A stretch of DNA of 64,000 bases from Camellia lanceoleosa (Eukaryota; Streptophyta; Magnoliopsida; Ericales; Theaceae). The notes under the pieces were generated by a model. It saw only the letters and a program-made list of their open reading frames with translations. It searched no databases and had not been told where the DNA came from. Shown here one piece after another: positions 1,469-44,342 of the stretch. The position numbers and the translations under genes were made by a program. The stretch covers positions 153,146,246-153,210,245 of the forward strand of contig CM045763.1 of NCBI GenBank assembly GCA_025200525.1. The letters run 5' to 3'. How positions within the stretch are numbered: the stretch's first letter is position 1; each line of letters opens with the position of its first letter.

Positions 1469-2419
1469 TTTGCGCTCTTCGGAGTCACTAATGCACCCGC
1501 AGCATTTATGGATTTGATGAACAGGATTTTCAAACCTTTCCTAGATGACTTTGTTGTTGTATTCATTTATGACATTTTGATGTAAAGATGAGCATGAACA
1601 ATATTTGAAAATGACCCTTCAAACACTTAGGGAAAAGCAGCTGTATGAGAAATTAAAGAAGTGTGAATTTTGCCTTGATAAAATAACATTTTTAGGGCAT
1701 GTTATTAACAGAAATGATATCTCAGTTCTCAGAAAATCGAGGCGATTGTTGATTGGCCTACTCCAACTAATGTAACAGAAGTTTGTAGTTTTATGGTGTT
1801 GGCTGGTTATTATCGGAGATTTGTTAAAGACTTCTCAAAAATTGCAAAGCCATTGACTCAATTGACTTGAAAGGGAGAACCATGTGAATGGACTGACCAA
1901 AGAGAATCTGCATTTCAAGAACTAAAGACAAGATTAACTACGGCTCCAATCCTTACTATTCCCTCAGGTACCGAAGGTTTTGTAATCTTTAGTGATGCAT
2001 CTTGTAAGGGTTTGGGCTATGTTTTAATGCAAGATGGCAAGGTAATTGCATATGTCTCTCGACAGTTGAGGCCACATGAAAAAAACTACTCTACACACGA
2101 CCTAGAACTTGTTGCAATTGTGTTTGCACTAAAAATATGGTGTCACTATCTGTATGGAACCAAATGTGAAGTGTACATAGATCATAAGAGTTTGAAATAC
2201 TTTTTCACACAGAAGGAATTGAACATGCGTCAAAGGCGATGGCTTGAATTAATCAAAGATTATGATTTACAAATTCATTACCATCCGGGCAAAGCCAACA
2301 CTATGGCAGATGCACTTAGTAGAAAGAATGTGGGGAATCTTGCCTATTTGCTCATAGATCAGAGAGAACTGCTACTAGAGTTTGAAAAACTCGAAATTGA
2401 AGTAGTGCCTTTTGGATAG
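1469..2419 (+). pseudogene. chromovirus pol, reverse transcriptase C-half and RNase H (broken)
   Basis: This is the pol of a Ty3/gypsy chromovirus, which copies element RNA into DNA. The match starts abruptly inside reverse transcriptase at [15 protein letters not shown] (from about 1487), so gag, protease and the RT fingers are missing to the left. The catalytic box reads FIYDIL, so the first aspartate of the usual DD pair is lost. Frame changes occur near 1584 and 1735, and a TGA sits at 1868-1870. RNase H is clear from 1980: [32 protein letters not shown] and [20 protein letters not shown]. The region ends at a TAG at 2417-2419, in frame with what follows. It cannot make an active enzyme. 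The family call is firm; the Tekay/Del-like sub-clade is a guess from the C-terminus. Confidence 0.9.
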
Positions 2420-3916
2420 GATAGTTTGATGGCCGCAATGTCTGCGCAACCTACAATTATTGAAGAAATCAAACAAAAGCAAATGAATGATGAAATTTTG
2501 AAGAAGATTTGCAATGAACTTGACACCAAGCCTAAACTGGGGTTCACAATTGAAGACTCCGTGTTGAAATTTCAAGGGAGATTGTGTATTCCAAATGATA
2601 CAAATTTAAAAAGGAAAATTTTGGAGAAAGCCCACAAGTCAATGTTTGCTATGCACCCAGGAAGCACCAAAATGTACTAAGACTTGAAGTTAGTGTATTG
2701 GTGGCCCAACATGAAAAGAGAGATTGCCGACTTTAACTCTAAATACTTACAATGCCAGCAAGTGAAAGCAAAACATCAAAAATCAGCGGGTTTGCTTCAG
2801 TCTCTTCCTATCCTGGAATAGAAATGGGAGCATATCGCCTTGGACTTTGTTGTTGGCCTACCTCGAACACCTAGAGGTATGGACTCTATATGGGTTGTAG
2901 TTGATAGACTAACTAAGTCTGCTCATTTTCTTGCCATAAAGACTTCTTTTACTGCATATAGACTTGCTACTATCTACATTGATGAAATTATTTGACTGTA
3001 TGGGGTTCCTGTGTTTATTGTATCAAATAGGGATCCTAAATTTGTTTCTAGGTTTTGGCATAGTCTACAAGATGCAATGGGGACAAAATTGAGGTTTAGT
3101 ACAGCATTTCATCCACAAACTGATGGACAAATCGAAAGGACTATTCAAACCTTAGAATACATGCTTCGTATGTGTGTTCTGGACTTTTAGGGCAGCTGGG
3201 AAACATATTTTCCATTGGCCGAGTTTGCTTATAACAATAGTTTTCACGCTAGCATTGGTATGGCACCATATGAGGCACTATATGGTAGAAAGTGTAGATC
3301 GCCAATTTGTTGGACACAGGTTGGTGACAAGGCTATTTATGGTACTGAACTTGTGCAAGAAACAACTAAAAAGATCAAAATCATTAAGCAAAGGCTCAAA
3401 ACTGCATAGAGCCGACAAAAAAGTTATGCGGATCAACGAAGAAGAGACTTAGAGTATGAAATGGGGGATCATGTGTTTATCAAAGTAACACCAATGAAAA
3501 GACAGATGAGATTTGGCAAGAAGGGAAAATTGACTCCTCGCTATATCAGACCGTTTCAGGTTCTCGAGAGGTTGGGTCCTATTGCTTACCGTATTTCTTT
3601 GCCACCGGGAATGGAGCAAGTACATAATGTTTTCCATGTATCCATGCTTCGTGGGTATCTTAGAGATCCATTCCATATGATTGATCACCACCGAATTGCT
3701 TTAGATGAAAATATGATGTTTGAAGAATGGCTCGTGCAAATCATTGATCGGTAAGTGAAGCAATTGAGAAACAAAACTATCCCTATGGTGAAAGTCGAGT
3801 GGAAAGAACATTATGGGAAGGAGGCTACTTGGGAGAAGGAGGAAGAGATGAGACAACGGTATTTGCATTTATTTCCATCGGAAGGTAACCTAAGTTTGGA
3901 GGACCAAACTTTCTAA
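2420..3916 (+). pseudogene. chromovirus pol, integrase and C-terminal chromodomain-like end (broken)
   Basis: This continues the same reading frame as the RNase H. It holds the N-terminal integrase region (AHKSMFAMHPGSTKMY, then WWPNMKREIADF), the catalytic core ([53 protein letters not shown]), the GPF-like stretch (PRYIRPFQVLERLGPIAY, VFHVSMLRGY), and a C-terminus (VEWKEHYGKEATWEKEEEM) of the type that ends plant chromovirus integrases and tethers them to heterochromatin. In-frame stops lie at 2417, 2678, 2819, 2993, 3188, 3407 and 3752, with no frameshift across about 2 kb. The true terminal stop is TAA at 3914-3916. Most premature stops can be explained by C-to-T or G-to-A transitions, as expected for methylated, silenced DNA. 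Non-functional. Confidence 0.9.
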
Positions 3917-3927
3917 GGGGGAGAGAC
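3917..3927 (+). other. polypurine tract of the chromovirus
   Basis: The purine run GGGGGAGAGAC lies between the pol stop codon and the LTR start TGTGACGACC. This is the expected site for plus-strand DNA priming in Ty3/gypsy elements. Confidence 0.8.
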
Positions 3928-4276
3928 TGTGACGACCCTGACCACCGAACTATTATATTACATTATTTCAATAAGTCTAATTGCATGATTATGTGTTTAA
4001 TTGTGTGATTATATACTTAATTTTATAGTTTTCTGTTATTACATGGAATATCTGTTTGAATTGGCAACTTAAAGACAGAAATTAAAAGCCAAGATGACTT
4101 CAGAAACTGAAATTGATTAGCTTAATAGATTAATTAGAATATTTAGAATTTTACTGCAACTTTAATTGAAAATTGATTCGGATCAAAATAATTAGAATAA
4201 ACTAATTGAAATTAGTTAGAATTGAGCCTAATTACTTAACTTTGATCATACTTGATTAGGCTAGCTAATCACACCA

Positions 4277-4286
4277 TATAAATAGG
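4277..4286 (+). promoter_or_regulatory. TATA box of the chromovirus LTR
   Basis: TATAAATAGG sits about 350 bp into the LTR and is followed about 60 bp later by a purine-rich leader (GAGAGAGAGAGAAGAGAA, from 4363), a normal plant LTR promoter layout. Confidence 0.65.
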
Positions 4287-4929
4287 TCAAATAAGCTTAT
4301 ATACTCATATGTACATACACTTGGCTGAGATTTTGAGAAAGTAGGAGAGTTAACTCAACACTAGAGAGAGAGAGAAGAGAATTGTGAAGGAATTGAAGGA
4401 GAATTGGAGGATTAAGTTATAAGACACTTGAATTCAAGCTTTAGGCACGATCTTCAACCCTAATCCTTGTAAACAAAACATGTAGAAGTTGAATTCATCC
4501 AAGTTTTGAGTTCATTTGCATGAAATTGTTTAGTAGAAGCTTGAATCACCTTGAATTGGGAAGATAAAAGTTAATCATGTACATGCATGCATAATTTGAG
4601 TTAGAATTCATGAAATTTCTACATGCAATGGCACTTTTACACCTAATTTGAAGAGTCCTTTATGTTTTCATACTTCTCATATCACTTGATCATGTTTTGA
4701 AGATATATCAACTCAATTTGAGTCAATCTTGCTCTATAACTTGAAGTTGAAGTTTTTGGTTGAGAAATTGCCATGGTTTTGAGCAATTAGCTTCAAATTA
4801 ATTATGTTTCCATGTTTTATAATGTTTTCCCATGTTTTTGTACCTTAGACACGAGTTTAGAATTTTTGAATACCAAATTTGAACTTCAAACACAATTCTG
4901 GAAATTCCAGAATTCGACCAGTCTGTTCA

Positions 4930-5172
4930 AGCGAAGAAAGTGTCGCTCTAGCTTGAAAATCAAGCTCCCACAAGTTTTACAAAAGTTTAAAGACCGCTCG
5001 AGCGGCCAAAGTGGTGCTCGAGCGAGGACCCTTTTTTCTCAGTCTTTCACTCAAGCGACCATCAAGCGAAAATTTCATGCAACTAATACTTCTGCCAAGT
5101 TTGCAAACCACTCGAGCGACAGAAGTTGCGCTCGAGCAACCACTTTTATTTTTGAACCCCCGCTCGGGCAGA
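4930..5172. repeat. cluster of CTCGAGCG-type palindromes in LTR R/U5
   Basis: The motif GCTCGAGCG or close variants (CTCAAGCG, CTCGGGC, CTCTAGC) recurs about every 30-60 bp, including the palindrome CCGCTCGAGCGG at about 4993. The same cluster recurs in the other chromovirus LTR at 16470-16800 and 53507-53837, so it belongs to the family. Function unknown. It creates Arg/Ser/Ala-rich spurious reading frames, which I do not annotate. Confidence 0.7.
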
Positions 5173-6312
5173 GACCCTGTTTTCAGCAAAGTTTGACTAA
5201 CTCTTTTAAGTGCATGCTTGCATCCTCATGTCATTTCAAGTACTCGTAGACACCAATTGAACTCATACAAACATGGAATGAGTTAGAAACACATGAGAAA
5301 AATTTAATGAAAATGGAACGGCTATCGAATGGTATTCCGGTTGTACTTTTGTTATGTGTTTTGTATAGGTGGACGTCTGAGCCCTTGTGACAACATAACC
5401 CACAATGAGTAATAACTTTATAAAGATATGTTCAAGTTATGTTTATTTTTGAAAATGTTACTGTTAGCGAAATTGATATATGAATGATTGAATGGCTTAT
5501 TGTTCATCGAATGGTTTATTGAAACTCTAGTTTCTTATGAATGAATGAAGTTCCCTTTAGGAAATGTATTCATGGCCCACCCTTGCTTGGGGGAGATTAA
5601 TACCATGGCCCATTGGCCCTCGTCCGAGGGAAACAATACCGTGGCGTATTGGATAATTGAAATATATAAATCTTTGCTGTCAGACATTAATGGTCACATT
5701 GGATATGATATATTGATTGACCCTTAAGGTCCCATTGTTATTAAAACAGTGTTACTCTATTGGATGTGACACATCTTTGAATGAAATGGTTACTGATGCT
5801 AAGATTGATACATGTAATGGTATTGAACTTCATTCATATAACCTCTTTATCCTGTTATTACTCATTGGGCATTAGCTCACTATTTATTTATATATATGTA
5901 GGTGGGCAAGCTGAACATCAAAGTTAAGAAAGTCTCGAGTCTACCCAGATCAGCCTTTTGAGGAGTTTCCAAGTGAAGTAATTAGGTTTAGGTGGAGCCA
6001 TGCTAGTTGAACCCCTTTTTTTTTGCTTGATAAATGATTTTGTATTTGTATATATTTTTGGGGTTTCGTATAACTATAAGATGTGGATTTTTGGAACTCA
6101 TGCGGTATATAAACATAAAGAGTGAACCTTCGCTTATGATACGAAGTCCTCTCATATACGCACGACTCAATGGATAATTTTTGTGTTATTTTAGACTTCC
6201 GCTAAGCCCTGTACTTTATATTAAAAGGTTTATTTGTATGGAGGCCGTAGGTAATCTATGATTACTAGCTGGTCATGATGCTAAACCTATGGGGTGGTTT
6301 TGGGTAGTGACA

Positions 6313-6620
6313 CGAACTCTCTAGCTGTTCTTTATCGATCTCTGTCGCTCGAGGGCTTTGCTCTAGTTGTTCTTCATCGAACTCAAACTCGATCTCAATC
6401 TCGATCTGTTCTTTATCTCAGATTAGATCATTATCATTCTTCGATTCTCTTCTTCTCTCTTCGATCTCTCTGCAAATCTCTCTCTTTAAACTCTGTTTGG
6501 ATCTATCTGTGTTCGATTATGGAGATGAAACGTGTAATCGAGTTTACACATGCGTACATGGATCGTCATCCTAGAAAGAGACTGCATTTGGGTTGAGACG
6601 TTGCTCCCCAGGCCTTTAAG
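6313..6620 (+). pseudogene. AFC2: AFC2-like LAMMER kinase, 5'UTR and exon 1 fragment
   Basis: A CT-rich 5'UTR-like stretch (6313-6518) precedes ATG at 6519. The 34-codon exon reads MEMKRVIEFTHAYMDRHP, RKRLHLG, a stop, then DVAPQAFK, ending AAG before a GT donor at 6621. This matches the start of plant AFC2, a CDC2-like LAMMER dual-specificity kinase that phosphorylates SR splicing factors in the nucleus. The TGA at 6594-6596 replaces the conserved tryptophan codon, so translation would end after 25 residues. No kinase-domain exons follow; the next recognisable exon is from MUTYH. I therefore call it a captured or translocated gene fragment. The chromovirus LTR ends exactly where this UTR begins. 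Confidence 0.75.
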
Positions 6621-7777
6621 GTATCAAATATGTTCTCTAGATCTCTGATTTCCTAATTTCTTTCTTCTTCTTTTTTGATTCTATTTTTTGCTAGATCTGG
6701 TCGAAATTAGATACGTGGTAGATTAGGTATGAGAAAAGGTTTATGCTTTTATAGATCTATAAATTTCATGGTAGATCGGGTTTGGAAAAAGGTTTATTAT
6801 TATTATTTTTTTATGTATAATCGATTTTTATTAGGTAATTTGTCAAAGTTTTTTAGTCTGTGATCAGATCTGCAAATTTCAAATAGCTCTTTTAAATATC
6901 TGTGGAGAATAAGAAAGTTATTAGGAAGGTTTGTTCATCTGACACTTTGATTTCTACTCAACACCTTTTTTGTTCATGCAATATAGTTCAATGATGTCTT
7001 GCAGTTTTCAATTGCTTCACTTGTGCTTCTGTCTTTCTTGGTGGAGATGCGAAGTTACTTGAGCTAGAAAAGCTTCTTCTCCCTCTTTACTTGAACATAT
7101 ATCTTCTAGATTGTTCAAATTCCTTTGATCTAAATCGATCTAGGGCTCAAGGTAAGGATTTTCTGACTTGGATTCGCTCAGTTCACTCAAGATCTGTAAA
7201 ATCTCATGGTTAAAACAATGATTTGGAGTATATTTAGGTTGATGTTTGTAAATTCACTTGCATTTTTTCCCCAATCTAGCTTTTCTGGCATTTTTCAATT
7301 TTTTTTTTTTGGCTTATGTTTTTCTGATTCCACTTGTTCACTTGTTTGTTTGTTTGTTTTTGTTTGTTTTTTTTTTTGGTTCTTATGTTTGAGTTTTGAA
7401 TTTCTTAAAGTCCTATAGGGAATTGAATATTTGAGGGATTGCTTACATCTCTTTTCTTTTGTTCTAAACTTGACGGGTTGGTAAATATGTAATTTTTTAA
7501 CTTCAAATTTCAATTTGATACTTGTTAATATGATATGCTGAAATGAATGACATGTAAATTTCAGTCATTTGATTCCATAAACATTCATTGTTATTTTGCC
7601 GGCAAATTATAAGGCTTGGCAAGTAGGTAACTTTGATTCACAATTGGCAAGTAGGTTAATTTTAAGGCTTGGCAAGTATGATTATTTATTTCCTCTGTTT
7701 GTTTGGTTCTTGATTAATCAAATATGTGTCAACAATTTTGAGTTATTGGGGATTAAATGTTAGCTTAATGTGTGCAG
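6621..7777 (+). other. intron-like DNA with one unidentified exon-like block
   Basis: This T-rich sequence behaves like introns. A block at 7015-7151 is bounded by a consensus acceptor (CTTGCAG) and donor (AAG then GTAAGG), and one frame is open across most of it (CASVFLGGDAKLLELEKLLL). I do not recognise the source gene. It may be another captured exon. A simple TTTG repeat lies at 7342-7365. Confidence 0.4.
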
Positions 7778-7838
7778 GAGGTAAATGAGATGTGGGCAGG
7801 CTTGGGCTATTATAGGTTTCAGCGATTTCTTGTTGGAG
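7778..7838 (+). pseudogene. MUTYH: MUTYH-like adenine DNA glycosylase exon fragment
   Basis: After a GCAG acceptor at 7774-7777 the frame reads EVNEMWAGLGYYR and then diverges (FQRFLVGES). This matches the helix-hairpin-helix part of plant and animal MUTYH (MutY homologue), which removes adenine mispaired with 8-oxoguanine in base-excision repair. Only about 20 codons are recognisable and no neighbouring MUTYH exon is seen. It lies between an AFC2 exon and ABCA exons on the same strand, so it is a captured fragment rather than a gene. A damaged second copy is at about 44798-44850. Confidence 0.75.
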
Positions 7839-8369
7839 AATCTACAATTCCTCTACCCAAATCTGCCAATAAATAATCATATACCATTGTTTGGATGTTT
7901 GTTTTACTACTATTAAAACATTTTTGGCCTATTGCGGCGTTTCAAAAACGTTGCTAATTCTCGATTTTCTTGTAGTAATTGTTTGGGAAACCTGAAAGTT
8001 TTGCCTACTATTTCAAAATGGTGTTCTGGTGGTTCATACTAGTGAAACCATTCTGCTAATTATTATGTTGTTGCTGTTGATCTATTGCTCTTTTATGTGT
8101 ATGTTGCACATTGTTCCTCTAACTAAACCAATTTTCATAATTATTAGACCATTTTTTTTTTTTGGTCTTTCAAGAAGATACAAGAATTATTATCAAATCA
8201 GGTATACAAGACACCCTTGGTCAAGCCCAGTTGGTAAGTTATCCTTCCCCTTTTTTATGTTTCTTTTCTTTTTATGTTTCCTTTTTGTTATAACAATATA
8301 TGTCTGTCTTTAGCCTTCTTGCTATTTGTTTTTGTTGCACTATTAATATGAATTTTTGAAACACTGCAG

Positions 8370-8514
8370 GGATCAGATACAATGATGGATACTACCAATT
8401 TACTTGAGCTAGCGTTCTTTTCAAATGAACCAGTTGACCATCTCCAACCTCAATGCTCTGCAAATTCTACAACTTCTGTTTCCATCCAAATTTCTTCTTT
8501 TCCAGTGTCTCAGG
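8370..8514 (+). pseudogene. ABCA-type transporter exon (N-terminal extracellular region), copy 1
   Basis: The exon is bounded by ACTGCAG and a donor at 8515 (GTATTA). It reads GSDTMMDTTNLLELAFFS and continues NEPVDHLQPQCSANSTT, resembling the first extracellular loop of plant ABCA (ABC1-type) full or half transporters, membrane proteins that move lipids. A likely preceding exon ends at 8233 before GTAAGT (IQDTLGQAQL); its acceptor is uncertain. The remaining ABCA exons lie beyond the solo LTR at 13624, so that LTR sits in an ABCA intron. No ATP-binding cassette is present anywhere in the window, so no transporter can be made. Confidence 0.7.
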
Positions 8515-9511
8515 GTATTATTTTTATCAATAAGATCTCCAACTTTATTACTGTCATATTTGATGATCGCATCTATTTAACATCACATCACATGGACACT
8601 GGACAAATTTAATATTTGCATTGTCTGCACTATCTGCACTGTGATGACTGTTGACTATGCTACAATTATATCTGTTTTCCTGATTATTTGCAAATACATC
8701 ATATATCATTTCTGCCCTTGCACATAGATTTACTTATATGCCATGCAACAAAAATTAATAATGTAACCCTTTTTGCTTGCTTCAGTAGTTTAACTCTTGT
8801 ATTCTTATTTCGAGGTTTGCATCCTAGGATCAAGTTGTACTCTGGTTTTCTAATTTCATTCTTAGAGTTGTTCTCTTGGACTTCCAAAAGTCAATCTAAA
8901 GATTGAATTAGCTGCATTTAAATGAGTTTGTAATTTCATTATGACTTGTTATCTAATTGAGGTTTCATTGCACTCCCAATTTGTTTCCATTGATTGCGTA
9001 CCTCATTTTTTGGATGGTCTTAGTAGGCAATCAAAGTGTTCTGAATCATATGTTGCATCTGTATATATTAAAATGGCTTGAAAACAAAGCAATATGATTA
9101 ATATTTTAATTCTTGCCATTCATGTTACTGTTTTTCATTGTATTTTTTAAGGACTTTGGTGTTGATTCATGATGTTTTCTAAACTAGGACAGTTTGATGT
9201 TAAGTACATTCTTATTATGTTTGTGTGATACATTGATAGTATAGGCCAGGGGTTGAGCCCTGCATGATGAGCTTGGGTATGCAAGAACCCACCCACTGGG
9301 CTAGCCATTAGCTTAGAGTAAGGATGAATTTGATACATCAAATTCTTCATTCCTTTCTCTTTCTCCCTTCTTGCTATGATTGGTGGAACCATTTGTACAG
9401 TCAATCATATGAAGGAAATATGATTAGTGGGTTGGACACTTTTTGCACTAAATGACTGTTTTCAAGCCACACTTTTATTCAGGTCTCTCTCTCTCTCTCT
9501 CACATGTACGC
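8515..9511 (+). other. ABCA intron-like DNA
   Basis: AT-rich DNA between an ABCA exon and the solo LTR. It ends in a (CT)n run at about 9484-9500, directly before the LTR start. No coding signal seen. Confidence 0.5.
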
Positions 9512-12500
9512 TGTAGACACCCTATTTTTTACCGCCCTTAAGACTTGGGCGCTTTATTCTGAACACCTGATGATGAAAGTTACACTATGCAATCTTTTGA
9601 ATTCTCAGCGAAGAAATTTGGATTCAGGCTCTAATCTCAAACCTTACACCCCATTTTGGCCAAACTATTTTTGACCTTAAAACTCTCATTTCAAAATATT
9701 TTTCCAAATGCTTCTACGATGTTCTGAGGCTCGCATTTCGTTTAAAACATTGCACTTTTCGGTAAACCAAGTAAGGACAAAGTGGAAATAAATGGAAGGG
9801 AGGTGAACTCTTTGAAAAATCTTCAAAACCTTTTATTTATAGGTTTGGAGTTGAAGGACATACGAGGAGAGGGAAGAAAACTAGTTTAGGAAGAAGTTAA
9901 GAATCAAACTGTTGAGAAAGAATGAGAAGCCTTCACTAAATTAGGAATATTTCATTGCACACTTAGAATTTAGATATGAGGCCACCACTATTGGAAATTA
10001 GACTTCTGGGGCTTCAATTTAGACTCAAGAATCACCAAAAACCGAGTCCAGATGAGAGAGATATACCTGTTTGAAGTCGAGTCTGAAGTGCATCTTTTTA
10101 GACCCAGCCGGGTTCATTTAGAACTGGCCATACCTCATTGAGTCCCAGCTAGGCCTCAATGAAATCTTATCCTGGGTTGCTTGTTAGGCTCGGCCGGGTC
10201 TCAATGGCGCCAGATAGACAGCTAGTGGGAATTGAACAAATATCTTTATTTGAAGATATTTTTGACCACTTTGACTCAAACTCTATAAATAGGACCTCTT
10301 CCTTCAGAATTCAAGGTTAGCAAAATTTCCAAAAGCCTTGAAAAATTAAAGAGACCTCCTTCCATCTTCCTTCCTCCTTTGACCGTCAGACCTGCTTTAG
10401 CTATACATACACAATACATACACCATTAGAGCTTGTTCTTGAAGCTTTTGTTGAAGTTTCAAACCATATCTCATAAAACTTGAGGGTGTTGGAATCAAGT
10501 TTATTTAACTACAAGCATCCTCTCTTTCAAGAGGTATAACTTTTGCATCTTCTTCCTTATTTCTCTTTTACTATTTTATTCTCTTTTCCATGTTTTGTAC
10601 ACTGTTTTGGGAGTGTTTTGTGGGCTAAAATTTGTGATTTAAGAGCTACCAAAGTTGGAGGGGTTAACCACCATTCTTTGAACCTTATTCTAAGCTTATA
10701 TCCTTGTGTTTCCCACTTATTTCTCTGATTTTAACCACTGTTTTGGGCTATTTTTGGACTATTTTCAAAGGCTAAAATATGGTTTAGAAGTCTCAAAAGT
10801 GGAGGGGTTAGCCACCCCTCCTTAGCTTTGCTTACTACCTTTGTATCTCTTTATTTTTGCCTATCTTTTGTGCTCTTTTAACATGGTTTTAGCTACTGTT
10901 TTTCATCCTTTAGGGGCTGTTTTAGGGCTATCCTAGGTTATTTAATTAATTCATGCTTTGATTAGTTTGCTTGTTGTCTCATAAGTTTGCATATATAACT
11001 TGTTATATGTTGTTCTTGGCCTTTCTTTGTTTAATTTCCATGTTAAGAGCCTCATTTTAATAATCAACTTACCACTCATTTCTTTCATTTGAGAGTTTTT
11101 TCAACCAGTTGATGGTTGTTCAAAACATGAGCTAAAGATCTACGCTTAATGGCTTAATCTCTACGGAGGTTCATCGCCAATGGTATAGTCTCTCTTTCAT
11201 GTTGAGAATCACTTCCCGTTTGACATGCTTCTCATTTAGTGGACGTGATCATCACCTTGGACTTAATGGACTAAAGAATGGAAATGTCTAAAAATTACTA
11301 AAATGAACCAACCTACATAAAGAAAATGAGTTATATTGCTTGGATTCGGCCGGACATTATGCCGAGTCCATCGTGTCAAGAGTCGTCACATGTCAATTCA
11401 TGATATTTTGATGGATCTTGGAGCGTGTATACTTCCTTCTTTTACTTCATAATAAGAGGAAGGGGTGGTTATTGATTCATTGCATTCATTAATTTTTGTT
11501 CAAAATCATGCCCTAACTCATCAAGCAATCAATTTACTCATTGATGGTTTTGAAAATGATTCCAACCTTCTCTCGAGGCTTTCCCATGACAGAGATGTGT
11601 GAAAGGGACAAATAGAGTCTAGAATAACTTTTTCTGCACTGTTTTCACTTCAGAGCACAAAACAAGATTTTGCATGAAATTAAGGCACAACTGGCCCTTT
11701 TGGGGCCAGGCCGGGCCTCATTAAGGCACGGCAGGCCATCAATGTTTGGTCAGCAGTATGTTTTGCAAAAAACAGAGGGCAATGGTTGAAGGTGAAACAG
11801 TACAGGCCTAGGCAAACAAAGCTGTTCTTGGACACTGTGCTTGCAACCCTTGTGCATCCTTGCTTACATTAATGTTGTAAATTAATGCTCCGTGTATTGT
11901 TGTAATTAATTTAATCATTATTATTGTTACAATTAGTCTTGTTAATTATTAGTGTTGTAATTATCATTATTGTTTATTTGTAATTGTTATTAGCTAATTA
12001 GCTTAAATAGTTAGTTTACCTATCATGGTTATCCTTGTTGTAATAGAGTAGTTAGCTAGTTAATTCTTTGCTTATTTATTCATTCGGTTTTGTAATAATT
12101 AGTTTAATTCGAACTTTCAGACTTTGATTCGCACCCTCTTGCATGAGGGCAATCATATAATAAGTTGTATGTCTTCCAACCCTACGTCTTTCTCCTTTTT
12201 ACTTACTTGCTTACAATGGTTAGAATAGAACATCATTTTTCAAATTAGCATTCTTATACGTTGTATCCATTGTCTTGCATGCATCCAAGATTCGACTCAT
12301 CATACTAATCCAATATCAATGTTCAAATTCATTGCCTGAATACGTGTTTTATCGCATGTCTTGAATGGAACCATATGCCATGCTCATAGCCAAGCCTATA
12401 AATTACATAATGTGTGCGTTGTATTTAGTCATATTGCATTAATTAGGAGCATGCATATTTTTCTAATTATTTTGCTTTGTTTTGGCTTGGAGTACTAGGT

Positions 12501-13175
12501 GAGCAATTTTGAGTTTTAGCATCTTGCATCGAATGTTTGTGTTGCCATGCCAAGCATATTTCCATGAGGCTACTTGCTTAAATGATATAATTGTTTAAAT
12601 GCTTGTGGATGAAGGCTAGTTGCTTGAATTGGGATAGTTTGATTAATATCCATTTTAAGCCCACTTTTTCAAGTGGCATATTCACAAACTCTTTTCAAAA
12701 CCAAACATGAAATCAAATGTTCCAATTTTTCGCAAATTAGTCTATACTTGTGTGCGTCACATAGTAAAAATAGCTAATAATCGGAATAAGAGCATATAAC
12801 GTAAATAAAAATTACATCATGATTAGTAAAGGCTGATCTTTGATCGGGCGAGTGAGATGCTCAATTCATGACCTTTCCCTCTCGTACCTAAGTTCCCAAA
12901 CCAAGACACTTTGGTGATGACAGATAAGTGGGCTTTGGCACGAGTCTCAGGTTTCCTAAATTTTTCAAAAATATTTAGGTGGCGACTCTAAATCTGGCAA
13001 AGCAGTCCATTTTTGGCATTTGATTCAAATATCGATTTTCCAAAAGAATTTCTGGATTTGGACTCTTTTGTGTTTTTATTGTTTCACATTGCACTTTGTG
13101 AATCAAATTCAAAACCATGGGAGTCCGAACTATGGGGCTAGTCTTATCCAAAAGGAGCACGAAAAGCAAGCTACA
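9512..13175 (+). mobile_element. solo LTR of a Tat/Ogre-like retrotransposon, copy 1
   Basis: Starts TGTAGACACC and ends near GCAAGCTACA (end placed at 13175; 13201 is the alternative). The order of blocks matches the - strand LTRs elsewhere: TTACCGCCCTTAAGACTTGG at the start, a TATA box, a long R/U5, and near the end GGTGGCGACTCTAAATCTGG, TTTGGACTCTTTTGTG and CACATTGCACTTTG. No PBS, gag, pol or PPT adjoins it, and ABCA fragments lie on both sides, so it is a solo LTR left by LTR-LTR recombination. The target duplication is not clear (TACGC left, CGTGC right). Copy 2 is at 46651-50211. Confidence 0.75.
10284..10293 (+). promoter_or_regulatory. TATA box of the solo LTR
   Basis: TATAAATAGG lies about 770 bp into the LTR. 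The other LTRs of the family have their TATA box a little further in, about 0.9-1.5 kb from the LTR start. Confidence 0.6.
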
Positions 13176-13623
13176 CGTGCGCACGCACACACGCGCGCAC
13201 ACTTTTAACACAGGTTATATTATAATTAGTATTAAGATAATGGAGGAAATCCAGCTTTGGTGTGATTTTTTTTACTGTATTTTTTGTGTTGTCTCACTTG
13301 AAACTACAGTGGCCACTAAAGCCCACAAAGTACATGTCTATTGTTGGTTGCAGTTTGAGCCAACACCCAGGAGGGGAGAGTCAAATGTAACACAGAGAAC
13401 ACCAGATTATTTCCTATAAATGCAACACTTGAATTATTGCTAAATCTCAAGTGACAAGGTGTATCGGTAAAGAGGGATGAAGATCTGGTGAGACAAACAT
13501 GAGAATTGACTTTTACAATTCATACATTTTACGTACTTGAAAACATCAAGTAGAAAAATGTAAAGCAGTGCTGCATTGATTGACAAACATGAGAATTAAC
13601 TTTTACAATTCATACATGTACAG
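13176..13623 (+). other. ABCA-flanking intron-like DNA
   Basis: Includes a short alternating CA/CG tract (13171-13201) at the LTR edge, then intron-like sequence up to the acceptor TGTACAG at 13617-13623. An ABCA exon may be hidden around 13440-13490, but I cannot support it. Confidence 0.35.
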
Positions 13624-14580
13624 GCCTCAAATGCCTACCTCCAATTTTTACTTGGGCCTGCTACAGAAATGCTATTTGAGTTTGTAAACGAAATGCCCAA
13701 GCTTGAGACCCAAATCAAGATAGATCTCACTTCTGTCCTTGGACCACTCTTCTTCACATGGGTCATTCTTCAATTATTCCCAGTGAGTATTTTTTTTTTC
13801 CCCTTCTTTTTCACCAACAATGGTGTTTGTTTGAATTAGAGTATTTGAAGCATGCATGTTGTGTTTTATAGCCAATGAAATGATTGCATCTAATATCTAT
13901 TGGTATATTATTTAGGAAGATGTTATTTGTTTCATTCTTATATATGGTAATAACCTTCAATTATTTTCCCTATTTATGTATGTCATATTGACATCTTTGG
14001 TTTACGAGAAGCAACAAAAGCTAAGAATCATGATGAAAATGCATGGGCTTGGCGACGACCCTTATTGGATGATTACTTATGCTTATTTTCTTGTCATATA
14101 TTTGGTCTACATGTTATGTTTTGTGGTATTTGGCTTAGTTATAGGTAATAAGACAAGAAATGGACTACTTTATTTCTTTTGACTTTTTTTAATCAAGTTG
14201 CTTTAAAACTGTTGATTTTGATGCAGGGTTGAAATTCTTCACACTCAATGACTATACCATCCAATTTGTATTTTATTTCATCTACGTAAACTTGCAAATT
14301 TCATTGGCTTTTCTAGTAGCTTCAATTTTTCGCAAATGTGAAGATTGCTGCAGGTTTGGTCTCAACTAAAAAATTTTATTTGTTAGAGTGGGCCAAATTA
14401 TTATTATTATTATTTTTTCTTAAAGATTAGTCAAATAACAAAGATGACAATTGAAATTTGATGACCATAGTTATCGGGTACATAATGGTTTTCGGATCCG
14501 GGCTCTTAAGAGGCTTTCTTTTCAGATCTTTCTTGAGGATACATCATTCCCAAGTATTCAGCTCAGTTTTGATAGTTCAG
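13624..14580 (+). pseudogene. ABCA-type transporter, first transmembrane-domain exons, copy 1
   Basis: Four exon blocks are seen. Exon a (13624-13782) reads ASNAYLQFLLGPATEM to FFTWVILQLFP. Exon b (13982-14144) has YEKQQKLRIMMKMHGLGD and membrane helices (MLCFVVFGLVIG). Exon c (14227-14353) reads GLKFFTLNDYTIQFVFY. Exon d (from 14471) reads VIGYIMVFGSGLLRGFLF. These are hallmark residues of plant ABCA transporters between transmembrane helices 1 and 5. In this copy the exon b acceptor is destroyed (AT instead of AG at 13980-13981) and exon c carries one extra T in a T run (about 14330-14335), shifting the frame. Exon d is out of register with the family after GFLF. Nothing downstream encodes the nucleotide-binding domain. 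Confidence 0.85.
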
Positions 14581-15238
14581 GTAAGTTTTGATGAACATTA
14601 AGATCTTCATATGCTATGTCATTACACTGATGATAATGACATATGAATAGATATCTATTCTTGGATTAAACTTTAAAATTGGTATAGAACTATTTAGAGG
14701 TTAATTATAAATAGTTGGTATAGTTATTTAATTGACTATCATATATACTTTCTCAATGTCAAATTAGATCTGCTGATTAACTATCTATTTTTTCATTCTC
14801 AGATCGGATCAAATTGATTGAATACACTAGATCGATCTCTCTTGCTTTTCATTTCGGGGTACATTTTTCAAATCAATTAGTTCCTCCTCACAAGTGATCA
14901 ATCTCTATGACTTCTGTTTGGAATTTAGGCTTGCTGGAATTCATTATATGATACAAGTGATGGATACACTAATGGATTTAAAGTTAATTTTGATAGTTTC
15001 TATATAATTAAAATTTTTGATCCATGCATTAAATAATTAATTATAGACATGACTAACATTGTCATCATATTGAATACTAAACAGTTAAAGTTGCCAATTA
15101 TTTGCACAGGTTATTTGTGGTCTTTGTTTTTCATTGATTCAGGTATCCAATCGCTTTTGATTTGGAGTTCACTTGAGATACAGAGCTTTCATGGTAGCAA
15201 TCTTAGGTAAGGTTGTTCAATTTGGAGTTGTTTTATAT
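14581..15238 (+). other. intron-like DNA after the ABCA fragment
   Basis: AT-rich sequence with one exon-like block at about 15144-15206 (acceptor GATTCAG, donor TTAG then GTAAGG) whose translation I do not recognise. It ends at the inverted chromovirus LTR. Confidence 0.35.
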
Positions 15239-15917
15239 TGTCATGACCCAAACCCGCCCTATAGGTTTAACGTCATAACCGGCCAGTAATCCTTAGATTA
15301 CCAAAGGCCTCTGAACAAGTTATCAAGGATTAAGGGGTTGTGGAAGCAAATGTAGAAACATACATAGTCCATAGAGCTGTGCAGACATACATAGAACAAA
15401 AATTTCAAAACTGAAACATATACATACATAAGTGACGTTAAACTTCCTTAAGTCTTGCAACACTATACAAGTAGTATTATAAGGGACTTAGCCCAGCGTA
15501 CAGATAAACAAAAACAAAATAGCAAAACATTCTTAGCATGGTTCACAAAACTTGACTTTTCAAATGGAAACTTCCCTGGAAGGCACAGTGGTTGGCTAAC
15601 TCAAAACTCTCCAGGCAGCAGCTTAGGCCTAGTCACGTGCTTGCTCATCTACATACATAATATAAATAGTGAGCGAAGCCCAGTGAATAATAATAGAGTA
15701 AAGGGTTAAATGAATGATGTCCCATATCAGATTCAGAAAGTAAAAGCAGATTCATATTCTTATTCGAAGTTCAAAAACATGTACTTTTTCAGTTTCATAG
15801 AGGATCATACGTGGTACACTCATTAGTGCTAATAGATCACGTATCGAGCATTAAAGGTCATACTTGACCAGTTCCATAAAGAAACCTCCGGTACCGAGAA
15901 CTTATAACATTCTTAAG

Positions 15918-16070
15918 CCATGGTATTGTTATCCCCGGGCGAGAGCCATGAGACCATGGTATTATTACCCCTGGGCAAGGGCCATGGGACCACGGTATGG
16001 TTACCCTCGGGCAAGGGCCTTGTGCTCATAGACCACGGTATTATTACCCCCGGGCTAAGGCCTTATGCTA
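15918..16070. repeat. four-unit tandem repeat in the chromovirus LTR
   Basis: Four units of about 38-40 bp share the pattern ACCATGGTATTATTACCCC followed by GGGCAAGGGCC. The + strand LTR has a shorter diverged version at 5570-5650, and copy 2 repeats it at 52955-53107. Confidence 0.75.
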
Positions 16071-16469
16071 AGAATGCCACAAATACTTTTCAATATATGG
16101 ACAATCATTCATTGATTCAGAACATAACATGTTAGAAAATAGAGCATTTCTTGTCATGTCATATCATATCATATAAGAAATTACTTAAACGTAAACATAG
16201 CTTTACAAAGTTATTATTCACAGAGGCTCCAAAGCAAACAGATAGAGCAGACAAATCAGATAACTTGCGGCGTGTGACCTACATAGATACAAAATGAATA
16301 CGTACAAAATTACACACCCGGAATTATTAACTTAGGTATTTCTTATATTGGTGTGTTTCTACTTCTTATCCTCATTATTATGTCTTAACCATGGCCTAGG
16401 AATGCCTAGGATGCAATGTGGATGCCAAAATGCACTTTGAAACACTTAACAAAATTTGCTGAAAACCGG

Positions 16470-16800
16470 GCCTTTGCTCAAGCATACCTTCTTTTGCTCG
16501 AGCGGAGACTTAAAAATGTGAGTGGTTACTTGAGCGTAACTTCGATCGCTCGAGCGGTCTGTAAACTCTGCAAAAGTACTAGTTGCTTGATTTTTCCACT
16601 TGACGCACGCTTGACAGTCGCTCGAGCTTGGGACTGAAGTCTTCGCTCGAGTGCAACTCTTGTCGCTCGAGCAATCTACAAAAATTGTAAACTTCCAGAA
16701 GCATGCATTTTACGCTCAAGCCAACTTTTGGTCACTTGAGCGGAGGTGCAAAACACAGAGCGGTCGCTCGAGCGTAGGTTCTGTCGCTCGAGCAGAGAAA
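16470..16800. repeat. CTCGAGCG palindrome cluster, - strand LTR
   Basis: At least eight occurrences of CGCTCGAGC or TGCTCGAGC and variants (ACTTGAGCG, GCTCAAGC) in 330 bp. Same family cluster as 4930-5172. Confidence 0.75.
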
Positions 16801-17384
16801 CAAAATCTGGAATTTCCAGATTGCTCTTCCAAGTTCAAAACGTGAATTCAAAGCTGCAAAATGTGGTCTATTGGGCCAAAACTCAAGAAAGCATTTAGAA
16901 ACTTGTAAAATATCATGAATTGAAGATCATTTCCCAAAATCAAGGCCCAAAATCATGTCAATTGTTCAAAACTCAAACTTGAAATGTTGAAAACAACTAA
17001 TGTATATAATTTCTTAGCTTCAAAGCTTCCAAATCATGATCAAATAAGACAAATTGATGGAAAACAAGATGAATTCTCAAAACTATGGTAAACTTGGTAC
17101 ATGCATGTGAGAATTACTTGACATTTAAACTCAAAAATGTAATGAAAGTGCATGCATGCATGATACGCTCCTAAAACCATTTATCTAAGCTTGGTTCTTG
17201 CATTAACACAACTTAATTCTTTGAATTCAAGTGTTAAATGACTCAATTCCAAAGCTTAAAGGTTGAGTTCTTACCTTAGATGATCAATGATGCTCTAAAT
17301 GATCAATTGTTTGAAGTTCCAAGCCAAAACCTCAAATTTCTCTAGCAATCCCCTTAATTTGAGCTCAAACTTCTCTACCTTAAC

Positions 17385-18490
17385 CTTCAATTGATGATAA
17401 CCCGATCTAAGGTCAATTTTGGAAAATATTTGGGCTCCCTGAAGTTGGTCAAACAAATCATCTATTCAGGGCAACGTATATTTATTCTTGATAGTTACTC
17501 TATTCAATTCTCGGTAATCCATACATAACCTTAGGGACCCATCTTTCTTTTTAACAAACAAAATTGGAGCACCCCAAGGTGAAGTGCTCGATCGGATGAA
17601 TTTCTTGTCTAGCAATTTTTAGAGTTGAACTTTCAATTCTTTTAGTTCAGCGGTTGACATTCTGTAAGGGGTCTAAGAAATTGGTTGTGTCTCGGATACT
17701 ACATCAATGATGAATTCAATTTCCTTATCAATTAACTCCCTAGGTGGGTCATTGGGAAATACATCAGGAAATTCACGAACTACGGAATAGTTTCCACATT
17801 ACCACTATCAAGATATAGTGAATACAAAACACAAGTAGCCCCAACAACCTTTTCTTAACAACTTCTAGCTTTCATAAATGAAATCAAGCACGGCGGAGGA
17901 ACTACCCTATTCCCAATAAAGATTAACTTAGGCATGCCATGTGGTGAAACACTAATGATTTACTCAGACAATCAATGGTGGTATAATATTTCGTCAACCA
18001 ATCCATACCCAAAATACAATCAAAATGAGTAATTTCCAACGGTAACAAATCAACATATAACAACATATCCCCAACCATAATGTCTACTTAAGGTACATAT
18101 AAGCACATAACATAGAGCCTCCAGATGGTGTAGATACAGATAGCAGATCATGCAATGGTTCTAAGGGTGGAATTAATTTTTGAGAAAATGCATGCGACAC
18201 AAAAGAATGCGTAGAACTAGAATCTATTAACACATAGGCACGTTGAGCACAAATAGAGATCATACTTGACACCTTGACTCGGTGTTACCAGACATCACCA
18301 AGTACTAGTGCAAACACTCAGCCTTGCCTCAGAGTTTCTCTTTCGATATTAGTTTTCACATTTGTTCTTGGTGCAGGGATGGGTTCAACTGAACTTGCTT
18401 TAGGATGGTTAGCATCATCGGATCTCATCGAACAATCTCTAATCATTTGGCCAGTCTTGCCACACTGAAAACAAGCACCCGAGGCACGAT
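17385..18490 (-). pseudogene. chromovirus gag zinc knuckle, protease and RT start, copy 1
   Basis: Reading down from 18490 on -: a gag zinc knuckle with the histidine replaced (CFQCGKTGQMIRDC), a retropepsin-like stretch with YVLIDSSSTHSFVSHAF, where the catalytic motif reads DSS, the conserved segment around the GMDW signature, then reverse transcriptase up to [10 protein letters not shown] at about 17390. There the frame runs into LTR sequence, so the rest of RT, RNase H and integrase are deleted. Copy 1 carries frameshifts relative to copy 2. The upstream part of gag is missing because a Tat-type LTR begins at 18499. Non-functional. Confidence 0.85.
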
Positions 18491-20451
18491 AACACGTGTG
18501 TAGACCGCCAAAACTCCGCTCCGCGCGCGAGGGCGCGAATTGTAGTTCTAGCTACTACAGTTCGGACTTCTGTCACGGTTCAGAATCTAATCTCCCAAAG
18601 TGCAATGTAAGATTGATAAATCACCAAAGAGTCCAAATCCGGCAATTGGTTTTGGAAAAGCAATTTTGAATCAAAAAATGCCAAACATGGGCTGCTTTGC
18701 CAGATTTCAGAGTTGACACCTAAATGTTTTGTTTTGGAAAAAGTTTGGAAACCCTGACTCGTGCCTAAGGCCACGTGTCCAACATCACCAAAGTTGTCTC
18801 AGTTCGCGAACTTGGGTTTAATAGGGGAAGGTCCTGAAATGAGCATCCCCGCTCGCCCGATCAAAGGATCGGCCTCTATTAACATGATATGTTGTTTTTG
18901 AAAACACATGTGTTCTTATTCTGATTTATTAATCTAACTTACTATGTGATGCGCATAACATACAAGTATAGACTAGATCGCCTAAATTGGAACAAAACAA
19001 TTCAATGTTTGTTTTTTAAAAATGGTTTGAGGTGCTACTCGCAAATATGCTAAGACGCGGATTTGCCACCCTCGAGTGGGCTTAAAACAGGATTTGCCAC
19101 TCTCGAGTGGGCTTAAAATGCACATTTCGATGAGTTGTTCCAATTCAAACAATGAAGCCTTCATCCACAAGCATTCATGCAGTTAAACACTTAAGCACAT
19201 AGCCTTATGGCAAGCATGCTGAACATGGCAGTCACTCGCACTCATGCAGTATGCTAAAGCGTAAAAGCTTACCTAGTACTCCGAGCCAAAACAAAAGCTA
19301 TGTTAGAAATCAATGCATGACCCTAGCTATGTCAAGAATGCCTAATGCAACACAAGCAAAATGCAACTAAGATAGGTTTGGCTATTCTAAGATGTCATGT
19401 GAATGCAACTTGATAACATCTATTCAAATTGATATTGAAATACAATGTAGTTTGTATGATGCGCCGTGCCCGGTGCATGCAAGACAGATGAATGATGCAC
19501 GCATGCGAGCATAAGTATGCTAACCACTGAAAGCGGGTAAATAAAAGGGAGAAAGACCTGGGGTTGGAAGACATGCATCACACTCACGCACACTTATTAC
19601 AACATTTGCCCTCTCGACGGAGGGTCCGAATAATAAGCTAAGCTACATCTAAGCTAAGCTAGCTAACTAATCTAATAAAGCTAATTAGACTAGTTATTAC
19701 ACAACAAAATGAATGACTAGCTATAACTAGTTATTACAGCACCTTAACTAATCAACAAATTAATTAAGTTACAAATTCAAGCTAGACAAATAAGCATTAA
19801 ACTACACTACTCAGCTCTGCTTTGGAAAGTTGAACAATGTATGATTTTGGTTCCTCGCTCGGAAATCCATTGCTATGCCCTAACTTGCCTCTGTTTGCAT
19901 TTGATCTCAGAACACTGCACAAAACTCCAGATAGCTTCTACTCCAAAATGGGGACCCCCAAGAGGGTTGCCGACCAGTTGATGGTGGGGTAGACCACCTG
20001 TAGACCACCTAAGTATGCTGCAGACTAGAAAAAGTGGTCGGCCAGCTACTTTTTCTGGTCTGCCGACCAGAAAATTCTGCCCAACTCCAGTTTGCTGCAA
20101 CAGAGAACAAGAAGGGACACGGCAGTGTATTTGCAAGGTATGTGTGCATAACCACCGTCCCTATCATTTCTTAAGCTCAAAGAAGTGCGGTTCTCGTCCC
20201 TCGGGCCACCAACCGAGCATCGCAATGCACAATGGCCGAGAAGCCAAGTTTGCACAATTCAATTTCAATGAATGCACAAATAACACATAAGGGCCTTGAC
20301 CTCTATCATGCTTGATCAAGAAGGTCGGCGACCGAGAAATGAGGCATATTTCATCACTTCAAGTATGAAACGTCCCTCGTTTCTCGTGTTTAGATTAACA
20401 TCCTATCCAAACACAATGCAAGGCAACATGATCAACCTATCAATGCTAATG

Positions 20452-20580
20452 GCATGCAAACATAATGCAATGCAACAACATGCGAACAACATGCAATGCA
20501 ACAAAATGCAAACACAATGCAATGTAACCACATGCAAACAAAATGCAATGTAACAACATGCAAACAACATGCTCTTCTAT
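20452..20580. repeat. ATGCAA-type tandem repeat in LTR R/U5
   Basis: Short units of the form ATGCAATGCAACAACATGC and AACATGCAAACAAAATGC alternate over about 130 bp. Copy 2 has the same array at about 57490-57620. Confidence 0.65.
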
Positions 20581-22468
20581 GAATGTTAGAATGGCATGCA
20601 CAAGGTTTCAACATATGAACAATGTATGCATGGCAAGTTTAGAAGCCTAAGGCATCAAAACTAGGAAAAAACATCTCACAAGAGGCCTGCAATACGATGC
20701 TCAATGGACTTAAACCGAATATGGACAGACCTAAATCATGCCAAAACAATGGCCAAAATACCAAAACTCAAGCACAAAGAGCAAGAATACATGCTCATGT
20801 GATGGCTCATTAACTAGGCATAAGGGTCCACTCTCAAACACAATCAAAGAGTGACATGCATGAGGATATGGAAAGGCTATATTCTCTGAAATAACATGTT
20901 AAATGATGCCAAATCATGCACATGTCACAAATGAAGCATGCTAGGAGGCTCATAGCTTGAAACTAGCATAGGCACTTGCACTATAGCTATGCAATACATG
21001 AACCATATGGCCAAGACAACCCAAAACAGTCCTAGAGCATGTCAAAATGATGCTAAAACATGTATGGACTAAAGCTAATACATGCTAGCATGAAGGGCAT
21101 GAAGCATGGAATAGGCAAGGCCAATAAGAAGGATTACACTACACCTACCAAAACCAAGCATGAGATGACTTCACTAACAAAAATTAGAGTTATGGCATGG
21201 AAAAACAAGACCAAAAACACACTGAAATAATAGCCCACAAGCTTAGGCAAGATGGCATACATAATGGCTCATGTTTAAGGCATAAAGCACCAACCCTCCA
21301 AAGCATTGAAAGAGTGAAAGATGTGAGGACATGGCGGTGAAACATGTTCAAATCAAATCACATATCAAATGATGCTAACACATGCAAATAGCCCAAGGAA
21401 TGCATGCTAGTGGCTTGGAAACTCAAAGCTAGTGAGCTAGAATGCACTATGGCTATACAAAACAAGGCATGCATGACCAAAATAACATAAAATAGAGCTT
21501 AATCATGGCAAAACATGAGTAAAAAGCTTCCTGGAGTAGAGTCAAAAGCATGCTAGAATGATGGTCAAAAGCATGATGCATGTTAGGCTAGTAAAGAGGA
21601 TTGCACTACAAGTGCAAGGAGCATGCAAGAGGCTATCAAACCAACCCTTAGCAGAGCTATAACATGCTGAAATAATGCCTAAGACATGCTAAGATGGAGC
21701 CAAAACATGCTAGAAAGACATTCTACTTTGATGAGCTATAAGTAGGATTACACTACACATACAAGAAGCATGCAAGGATGGCCTAAACTAAGCCAAAACA
21801 GAGGTATGCCATACTAAAATAAGGCCAAAAATAGGTTGAGAACAAGCCAAAACAACCTTAACAAACATGCTACTTTGATGAGCCATCAACACAAGCACAT
21901 AAGAGAAGAGGAGGGGGGACAACCCCCATCCATTTGAGGCCTCAAAACATACTTTCCACCACTGAAATTCCTCTGGAATTCAGTGGTGAAGAGGCCAAAT
22001 AAAGATGATCACAAAGGCCTAAAGTGATGGCTCAAAAGCCTAGCAAATAAGGCATGCAAGGGAGTAGACCACCCCCAACACCAAAAAAGCCTTAAACAAA
22101 CATTTCAAGCACTTAAAATCAGAAGTTTTTGCAGTTTAAAGTTAGGCCTAAATCAGCATGCAAAGAGGGCCAAAGGCTTAACCAAAAATAAAGCTTTAAG
22201 GGGTTAAAAACTCACCCTTGAAGAACAACTTCAAAGCTGCAACTCCAGCAACTTTTTTGGACCAAAAGCAATCCAAAAACTCCAAAACTAGCTTCAAGGT
22301 GTCTCAACTCCAAACCAAAGGAGTTTCATTTGGTGTTTGTGTGCAAAAGTGTGAAGAAATGGCACTTTTGAGCACAAATATGAAGAGAAAGGAGCAATAT
22401 AGAGATAGAAGTGTATGTATATCTCTCTAAGCAATTTTCTGAACCTAAGACAAGAGGGAGAAGGTTCC

Positions 22469-22477
22469 CTTTTATAG
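22469..22477 (-). promoter_or_regulatory. TATA box of the Tat-like LTR, copy 1
   Basis: On - the sequence reads CTCTATAAAAGGGAACC. It is about 920 bp into the LTR, placing the transcription start near 22440. Confidence 0.65.
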
Positions 22478-22609
22478 AGAAACATGCATCAAGCTTGTTC
22501 AACAAGCTTCAAGCTTGAATCAATCCCTCCATACACGTGTATGAAGGATGCTTTTTGCCAGCTAACAAAAGGTGGCATGGAAAATATCTCTGAGAAGTGA
22601 GGAAAGCTA

Positions 22610-23200
22610 ACCAATTAAAGTGGTCGACATTACTACTTGGTCGACACCTAGCCAACCATAAAAAATGGTCTGCAGGAAGAGAAAGTGGTCGGCAAGGGGG
22701 AGGAGTGGTCTACATAAAGAAAGCACGGTGGTGGCATGGCTGCCAACCACTTTAGGTGGTCCACAGACCACCAAGACCAGCTGGCCGACCAGAAAACTAG
22801 CTGGCAGGCCCAAAAAGTGGTCTTCAGGGAAAGAAACTGGTCTACAACCCTTATTCCACCCTCCAAGTAAGGAAAACAAGGTTTGTGCCAAAAACAAATC
22901 AAAAAGAATGAAAGACAAAAGTCCGCGGGACAAGGCGCGCAGCCGGAAGCCTCGAAAACTGGTCTACGGGTACCAAAAGTGGCCTACAAGAGGGAAAGGT
23001 GGTCTACAGCCACAAAAAGTGGTCTACAGACCTCTGTTACCCCCTAGGCAAGGGCAACAAGGCATGGTCCAAAACCAGGCCAAGAGGAGAACGTTAAGAG
23101 GTTTCGAGACAAGGCGCTCGACCGAAGGCCCCGGAAACCGAAAACTAGCCTACAAGAGGAAAAAGTAGTCTACGACTACAAAAAGTGGTTTACGGACCTC
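22610..23200. repeat. GTGGTCTAC / GTGGTCGGC motif array in U3, copy 1
   Basis: About a dozen variants of GTGGTCTAC, GTGGTCGGC and GTGGTCCAC lie within 590 bp at irregular spacing, all inside U3. Related palindromes lie upstream of the PMD gene at 25253. Probably a U3 regulatory repeat; no binding protein is shown. Confidence 0.6.
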
Positions 23201-23393
23201 TCTCTCCCTCCAGGCAGGGTCAACAAAGCATGGTCCACGAACCAAGCCAAAACACAAAGAGTTCAGAGGCCCGGAGGCAAGGCACTCAGCCAAAAACTCC
23301 GGAAACTCGAAATGAGCACAAACATGCACAATCATCGAGCGCCCAAATGATGACGTCTGAGTCTTAAGGTCGGTAAAAAATAAGGTGTCTACA

Positions 23394-23408
23394 GTTGCCC
23401 CTTTTTGA
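23394..23408 (-). other. polypurine tract of the Tat-like element, copy 1
   Basis: On - the sequence TCAAAAAGGGGCAAC immediately precedes the LTR start TGTAGACACC. This marks 18499-23393 as a 3' LTR whose internal region lies at higher coordinates. Confidence 0.75.
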
Positions 23409-25350: not shown

Positions 25351-25379
25351 CAACTCCAAGTCACTTTTGGTCTCACACC

Positions 25380-44242: not shown

Positions 44243-44342
44243 NNNNNNNNNNNNNNNNNNNNNNNNNNNNNNNNNNNNNNNNNNNNNNNNNNNNNNNNNN
44301 NNNNNNNNNNNNNNNNNNNNNNNNNNNNNNNNNNNNNNNNNN
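44243..44342. other. assembly gap of 100 N
   Basis: Exactly 100 N, the usual placeholder for a gap of unknown size. LTR sequence lies to its left and the second copy of the gene-fragment mosaic starts directly to its right. Confidence 0.99.

Follow-up and report, generated by a model that had tools for sequence, protein, structure and literature searches.

A probable Pack-CACTA transposon of Camellia lanceoleosa carrying captured AFC2, MUTYH and ABCA gene fragments

The window analysed here is a 64,000-nucleotide stretch of the Camellia lanceoleosa genome (C6:153146246-153210245); genome searches covered the assembly of this species (3.0 Gb, 790 contigs). Positions 6313-15238 of the window hold fragments of three unlinked host genes, AFC2, MUTYH and ABCA, which lie in one direction with their introns kept. 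These fragments were very probably captured by a presumably non-autonomous transposon of the CACTA (En/Spm) type, a confidence that concerns the carrier and the captures, not the order of events. In a sister copy on C11, the AFC2, MUTYH and ABCA fragments with their introns are enclosed by CACTA ends, which are flanked by a 3-bp target duplication. We call the element a Pack-CACTA because it combines CACTA ends with host gene fragments aboard. In related elements, this AFC2 first exon is followed by other combinations of cargo.

The sister copy (C11:121505491-121525195) is a complete element of 19,705 bp with GCA on both sides and contains a 93-95% copy of window 3926-18498. The 3′ end of the window copy lies outside the window at C6:153237064 and is followed by GCA as on C11; beyond it, 2.8 kb of the C6 flank is 90% identical to the C11 flank. 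The same 3′ end, the same GCA and the similar flank indicate that C6 and C11 hold one insertion duplicated with its surroundings. For the window copy itself, only the 3′-side GCA flank was seen. Positions 6313 and 15238, which the first-pass annotation had considered as possible limits of a transposon, are edges of inserts inside the transposon and not its termini.

Twenty related loci were fetched, and CACTA ends were examined for these fetched loci only. A sharp common 5′ end, CACTACAAGAAAATTG, is shared by 18 of the 20 with at most one mismatch (L027 and L028 are without it), which together with C11 gives 19 loci. In copies with both ends, the 3′ end is TTTCTTGTAGTG or close to it. Both ends with equal 3-bp target duplications are present in 11 of the 19 loci bearing the 5′ end: GCA (C11), TTC (L015), GTA (L022), TAC (L026/L044 and L021), ACA (L014), CAT (L024), ATT (L009 and L010), AAG (L011) and TGA (L025). 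These correspond to 10 independent insertions, because L009 and L010 represent one duplicated insertion. Besides the C11 element, the lengths are 2889 (L022), 3862 (L015), 4290 (L024), 4880 (L026/L044), 6629 (L021) and 7798 bp (L014). Terminal inverted repeats (TIRs) starting with CACTA and a 3-bp target site duplication are the marks of the CACTA superfamily. Pack-MULEs are recognized by long TIRs and a duplication of 8-11 bp, and the 3-bp duplications and CACTA ends found here differ from both. In line with this, no inverted repeat joining 6313-9515 with 13180-15240 was found at 16 of 18 bases.

The cargo varies among complete elements. Element E26, which has TAC on both sides, contains fragments of AFC2 and ABCA and a piece that is 96% like window 7825-7923, mostly MUTYH; a weak aminotransferase match in it (E = 0.02) was under the cut-off. 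When the 3′ end of the family was searched in the genome (query L015 5810-6109; 40 of 1254 candidates scored), 15 of the 40 scored ends lay within 20 kb downstream of, and on the same strand as, one of the 44 listed copies of AFC2 exon 1, and none lay on the other side. For 25 of the 40, no listed copy of AFC2 exon 1 was nearby, so the AFC2-led branch is probably only a part of the CACTA family.

Several observations weigh against the assignment to a Pack-CACTA family. No 3′ end with equal flanks was found in eight of the 19 loci (L012, L013, L016-L020 and L023) within 3-4 kb of flank, or about 8 kb for L013. Scans for the 3′ end gave matches with two mismatches and without matching flanks in L013, L020, L023, L024 and L025, and these were taken as chance. 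The 5′ end of the window copy was not seen in the approximately 13 kb searched upstream of the window. The genome contains at least 150 matches to the CACTA transposase domain PF02992 (150 of 2827 candidates scored), which speaks for a CACTA carrier, but no transposase was tied to this TIR family; the match at C7:153.018 Mb, taken with about 3 kb of each flank, has no such pair of ends. Finally, the ABCA block (13227-14620) is itself dispersed, with 47 matches in the genome (e.g. C12:82250213 and C13:140119834), CACTA ends having been examined at the fetched loci. Apart from these points, no transposase domain was detected by Pfam in six open reading frames (ORFs) of elements E15 and E26.

The first fragment of the cargo is derived from AFC2. 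The exon at 6519-6620 (+ strand) was confirmed as an AFC2-type exon 1, with an ATG and a GT donor at 6621, and matches the AFC2 gene of the same genome. It reads MEMKRVIEFTHAYMDRHPRKRLHLG*DVAPQAFK, the stop having arisen where a TGG codon became TGA. Compared with the C. sinensis AFC2 protein P0002, 25 of 34 residues are equal in the window copy and 32 of 34 in the consensus of copies. The AFC2-derived stretch spans 6434-6904 (+ strand), matches the gene at 80-94% and starts at a point 127 bp upstream of the donor ATG. The 5′ module common to the family, as aligned for 20 loci, covers 6334-6831 (+ strand) and includes the AFC2 5′ untranslated region (UTR), exon 1 and the start of intron 1. A protein search over the genome placed the donor gene at C2:111907205-111911151 on the minus strand, which is the only listed place with the first to the last exons in succession (106 matches; 99 of 1046 candidates scored). 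In contrast to this locus, AFC2 exon 1 occurs without the remaining gene in at least 41 places among the matches listed. The module has at least 35 dispersed copies beyond the window and C11, at 82-90% identity (40 of 592 candidates scored), and a genome search with 6313-8600 as query gave 88 matches.

In all 22 loci compared, exon 1 is 102 bp long with ATG and GT donor; 12 of the 22, the window included, have an internal stop. Among 21 copies (L028 left out), no indels were found in exon 1 versus 49 indel events in the intron part, and pN/pS of the exon was 0.41 (bootstrap 5-95%, 0.22-0.70). We make no claim of selection on exon 1 from this ratio, because 11 of the 21 copies have stops, the copies are not independent and CpG decay is a confounder. 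Locus L028 (C8:39.94 Mb) was considered as the AFC2 donor and rejected; it has exon 1 only, with two stops, and no later AFC2 exon was found within the 7-kb locus or 3.5 kb beyond. Capture of an AFC2 promoter is likewise unsupported, since homology starts only 127 bp upstream of the ATG.

The MUTYH fragment (7692-7901, + strand) consists of an intron, an acceptor, the start of an exon at 7778 and then gene sequence from after the exon. Against the MUTYH gene of the same genome, 7692-7815 (87%) and 7828-7901 (88%) matched, with 255 bp of the gene missing between. The first-pass annotation had read 7778-7838 as a MUTYH exon; in view of the break in the match and the 255-bp loss, this holds for about the first 12 codons, and the remainder is not MUTYH coding sequence. 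The first 16 residues of the exon from 7778 matched only adenine DNA glycosylases in PDB (four of four matches; best E = 0.026). The donor was located at C11:40.644-40.652 Mb, the sole listed place with a MutY-type NUDIX_4 domain. The MUTYH block (7690-7904) is present in 10 of the 20 fetched loci.

The ABCA exons proposed for the window lie in two fragments, both of which match one ABCA gene on C2. The first (8231-8617, + strand; 91.5%) contains the exon at 8370-8514, and the second (13530-14556, + strand; 94.1%) contains at least three exons with introns. The second fragment gave a match to ABC2_membrane_3 (E = 1.9e-6) that was under the domain's cut-off, and the five PDB sequences matched by the ABCA piece were all ABCA1 (best E = 0.0054). 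The donor at C2:103.730-103.742 Mb is apparently intact, with the N terminus, the membrane part and the ABC domain open and in order. A cluster of diverged ABCA gene copies was also seen at C15:37.2-37.4 Mb (C15:37165822-37429231). With the donors of all three genes located in the genome, the mosaic of three unrelated genes in one orientation reported by the first-pass annotation is established. The three genes are not neighbours: on C2, 8.2 Mb separate AFC2 from ABCA, and MUTYH lies on C11. Adjacency of the genes, which the first-pass annotation had named as grounds for refutation, is thereby excluded.

Two further blocks had been suggested as captures. The exon-like block at 7015-7151 has a counterpart that serves as an exon in the C. 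sinensis protein models P0040, P0049 and P0058. The block after the AFC2 module (7027-7646, + strand) is present in 17 of the 20 fetched loci, and no donor gene was found for it. The exon-like block at 15144-15206 (+ strand) has a single match among the fetched loci, in the AFC2-led L023 (83%).

As for how the element was built, it is fairly likely that the fragments were added step by step. An element with AFC2 and MUTYH would have ended up close to a second, equally oriented member of the family. The inner ends would then have decayed and the transposase would have used the outermost ends, by which the intervening DNA, including ABCA, would have become cargo. The transposase may have been supplied by autonomous CACTA elements elsewhere. 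The insertion was duplicated with its flank to C6 and C11, and is broken by at least three inserts read as long terminal repeat (LTR) retrotransposons. A 57-bp relic of an internal CACTA 3′ end (56 bp aligned) lies to the right of the MUTYH piece at 7921-7977 (+ strand), with its terminal hexamer decayed. This last hexamer is GTAGTA in the window, GCGGTA in C11 and GCAGCG in E26, and ATTGTTTGGGAAACC follows in all three. The relic looks like the fossil of two elements fused into one. A model in which neighbouring insertions are mobilised as one when their inner ends are deleted or mutated is described in an excerpt of PMC8903248, and the relic fits the mutated-end version of this model for one inner end.

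Two points weigh against such a fusion. An internal 5′ end was not found, which fusion with mutated inner ends predicts unless it was lost, and mosaics of this sort would also result from template switching in gap repair. Addition of the fragments by template switching, in gap repair or in replication, inside a CACTA element is a possible but less favoured route. It agrees with the missing internal 5′ end, and patchwork repair would suit both the 255-bp loss from the MUTYH piece and the presence of other DNA between the two ABCA pieces. However, three loci share the relic together with the DNA that follows it, a pattern that fusion predicts and patch repair does not.

The MUTYH and ABCA pieces recur in the window at about 44.8-51.6 kb, inside a second copy (44343-64000, + strand) of 7335-26876. 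This copy begins at a contig join of 100 Ns (44243-44342); the right contig starts at the equivalent of 7335, runs through the equivalents of the left tail and continues to the 3′ end of the transposon. The second copy is most likely an unmerged overlap of contigs, perhaps of two haplotypes. A real tandem duplication of 37 kb would agree with the presence of some 500-bp stretches without difference and with 97% identity over 11884-24252. It is nevertheless improbable, since the second copy starts exactly at the 100-N join. Moreover, identity between the left tail and the right contig declines irregularly, with 96% at 24 kb and 72-77% at 41-44 kb, and gaps increase from 15 to about 150 per kb as the left contig nears its end. 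The first 2 kb of the right contig are also noisy, as at poorly supported contig ends. A caveat is that the final 1-2 kb of the left tail resemble another LTR copy to about the same degree. The differences are densest at both contig ends and are mostly gaps there. The region of about 26-46 kb is noisy, and ORFs and lesions read in it are unreliable.

Multi-gene, intron-bearing mosaics in the same direction are typical of Helitrons, and the cargo described here is such a mosaic. The first-pass annotation had accordingly proposed capture by a Helitron or a Pack-type element. The Pack-type part of this proposal stands, in the form of CACTA and not of MULE, and the Helitron part has a very low probability: the relatives have CACTA TIRs and 3-bp target duplications, whereas Helitrons insert without such duplications. 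No hairpin-CTRR 3′ end was present in 5713-15838 either, a weak test because the chance expectation was only 0.28. A decayed host locus, in which rearrangement without any transposon brought pseudogenes together, would account for the stops and deletions in the fragments but is hardly credible, since copies are scattered over many chromosomes and 11 of these copies have exact ends with matching target duplications.

The AFC2 exon also appears in annotated proteins. Protein database searches (47 and 29 matches, each search limited to a range of protein lengths) recovered 19 Camellia models with the AFC2 exon and no kinase domain, 11 from C. lanceoleosa and 8 from C. sinensis. Its partners in these models include syntaxin (2.6e-44), chorismate-binding (2.6e-15), cullin (8.9e-13), glutamine amidotransferase (4.5e-8), Sec16 (7.8e-6) and Myb (3.1e-5) domains, and other models have no good domain match. 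The models are named, among others, AFC2 kinase, POLLUX-like ion channel, small RNA degrading nuclease and CTP synthase. Eighteen of them (P0066 left out) were compared with the fetched loci by tblastn. The exons of P0054 were found in order inside the complete element L024 (185 of 192 residues), and the matched parts of P0075 lie inside element L022 (87 of 156 residues). P0047, annotated on C3, had its best identity with L017 on C3 (173 of 290; locus cut off) and matched the complete relative L014 at 228 of 290. Two models were thereby placed in complete elements, and a third in a close relative that is itself complete. P0030 matched L019 (180 of 248; locus cut off), and P0076 was matched by its exon-1 part only.

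From these predicted models one might propose that the captured AFC2 5′ UTR and first exon act as a mobile common first exon, which would provide a start codon and a splice donor to the cargo and give rise to a class of chimeric proteins that share their N terminus, some of which selection would have retained. We regard this proposal as doubtful; the chimeric proteins considered here are models predicted from sequence. In the C. sinensis model P0066, the AFC2 exon lies in the middle and is preceded by a stretch that resembles an SMC protein; Pfam gave only a weak unknown domain for this model.

The element is of a known kind, and its unusual part is the common, much-reused first exon. The Tpn1 family of morning glory, a plant of a different order from Camellia, likewise consists of CACTA elements with intron-bearing host gene pieces; we know of no shared leader exon in Tpn1. 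In the available excerpts of PMC8903248 and PMC13317346, Pack-CACTA elements of Arabidopsis and other plants have CACTA ends, 3-bp duplications and coding pieces from multiple loci, as in Camellia, and grow by joining neighbouring insertions, as proposed here. The Camellia family differs in that one captured first exon leads many members, a terminus relic is found in three loci and the donors are located; a shared leader exon was not met in the Pack-CACTA descriptions of these excerpts. Tgm-Express1 of soybean, according to part of PMC1947982, is a CACTA element whose cargo consists of five host gene fragments, unrelated to one another and also with exons and introns kept, that are spliced into chimeric transcripts. 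It is known from one mutant allele, whereas the Camellia elements are dispersed members of one family that share a first exon, and are known from sequence. The Chenopodium CACTA elements, as described in part of PMC8978399, carry captured gene fragments in their 5′ region, as here, but have coding sequence of their own; the six Camellia ORFs sent to Pfam showed no transposase domain. A literature search by title and start of abstract gave no account of an AFC2-led CACTA family in Camellia, and CACTA is absent from the available main text of a paper on Camellia transposable elements (PMC12946509).

For the question of how host exons are gathered and combined by transposons, the family is a natural series that lends itself to study. 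It comprises three known donors, a first exon common to its members, several complete elements that differ in cargo and, in the inner terminus, an apparent fossil recording a joining event. It is also a warning for annotation, as this AFC2 exon is contained in 19 Camellia protein models under various gene names.

The window copy is interrupted by inserts of other kinds. A Ty3-type LTR retrotransposon lies inside the Pack-CACTA at 1871-6312 (+ strand), with pol remains at 1871-3730 (RNase H, 7.4e-32; SH3_Tf2-1, 1.6e-26) and a 3′ LTR at about 3928-6312. Its target duplication CGAAC follows at 6313-6317; on C11 only the LTR is present, with CGAAC at either side. Between the ABCA fragments, 9512-13175 is read as a solo LTR (TGTAG...CTACA); no clear target duplication was seen for it, and E26 and L027 lack it and have 9421-9493 directly joined to 13173-13465. 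The insert at 15239-18498 (+ strand) is read as an LTR retrotransposon; 15239-17376 recurs once, like a second LTR, near the 3′ end of the transposon in C11 and C6. Within it, 15918-16069 is a tandem repeat of 36-43 bp around CCATGGTATTGTTACCCCCGGGCAAGGGCC, and the left LTR is similar near 5580-5648 on the other strand. Positions 460-1264 hold a 199-nt inverted repeat (83% complementary) that encloses a second pair and resembles a miniature inverted-repeat transposable element or a foldback element.

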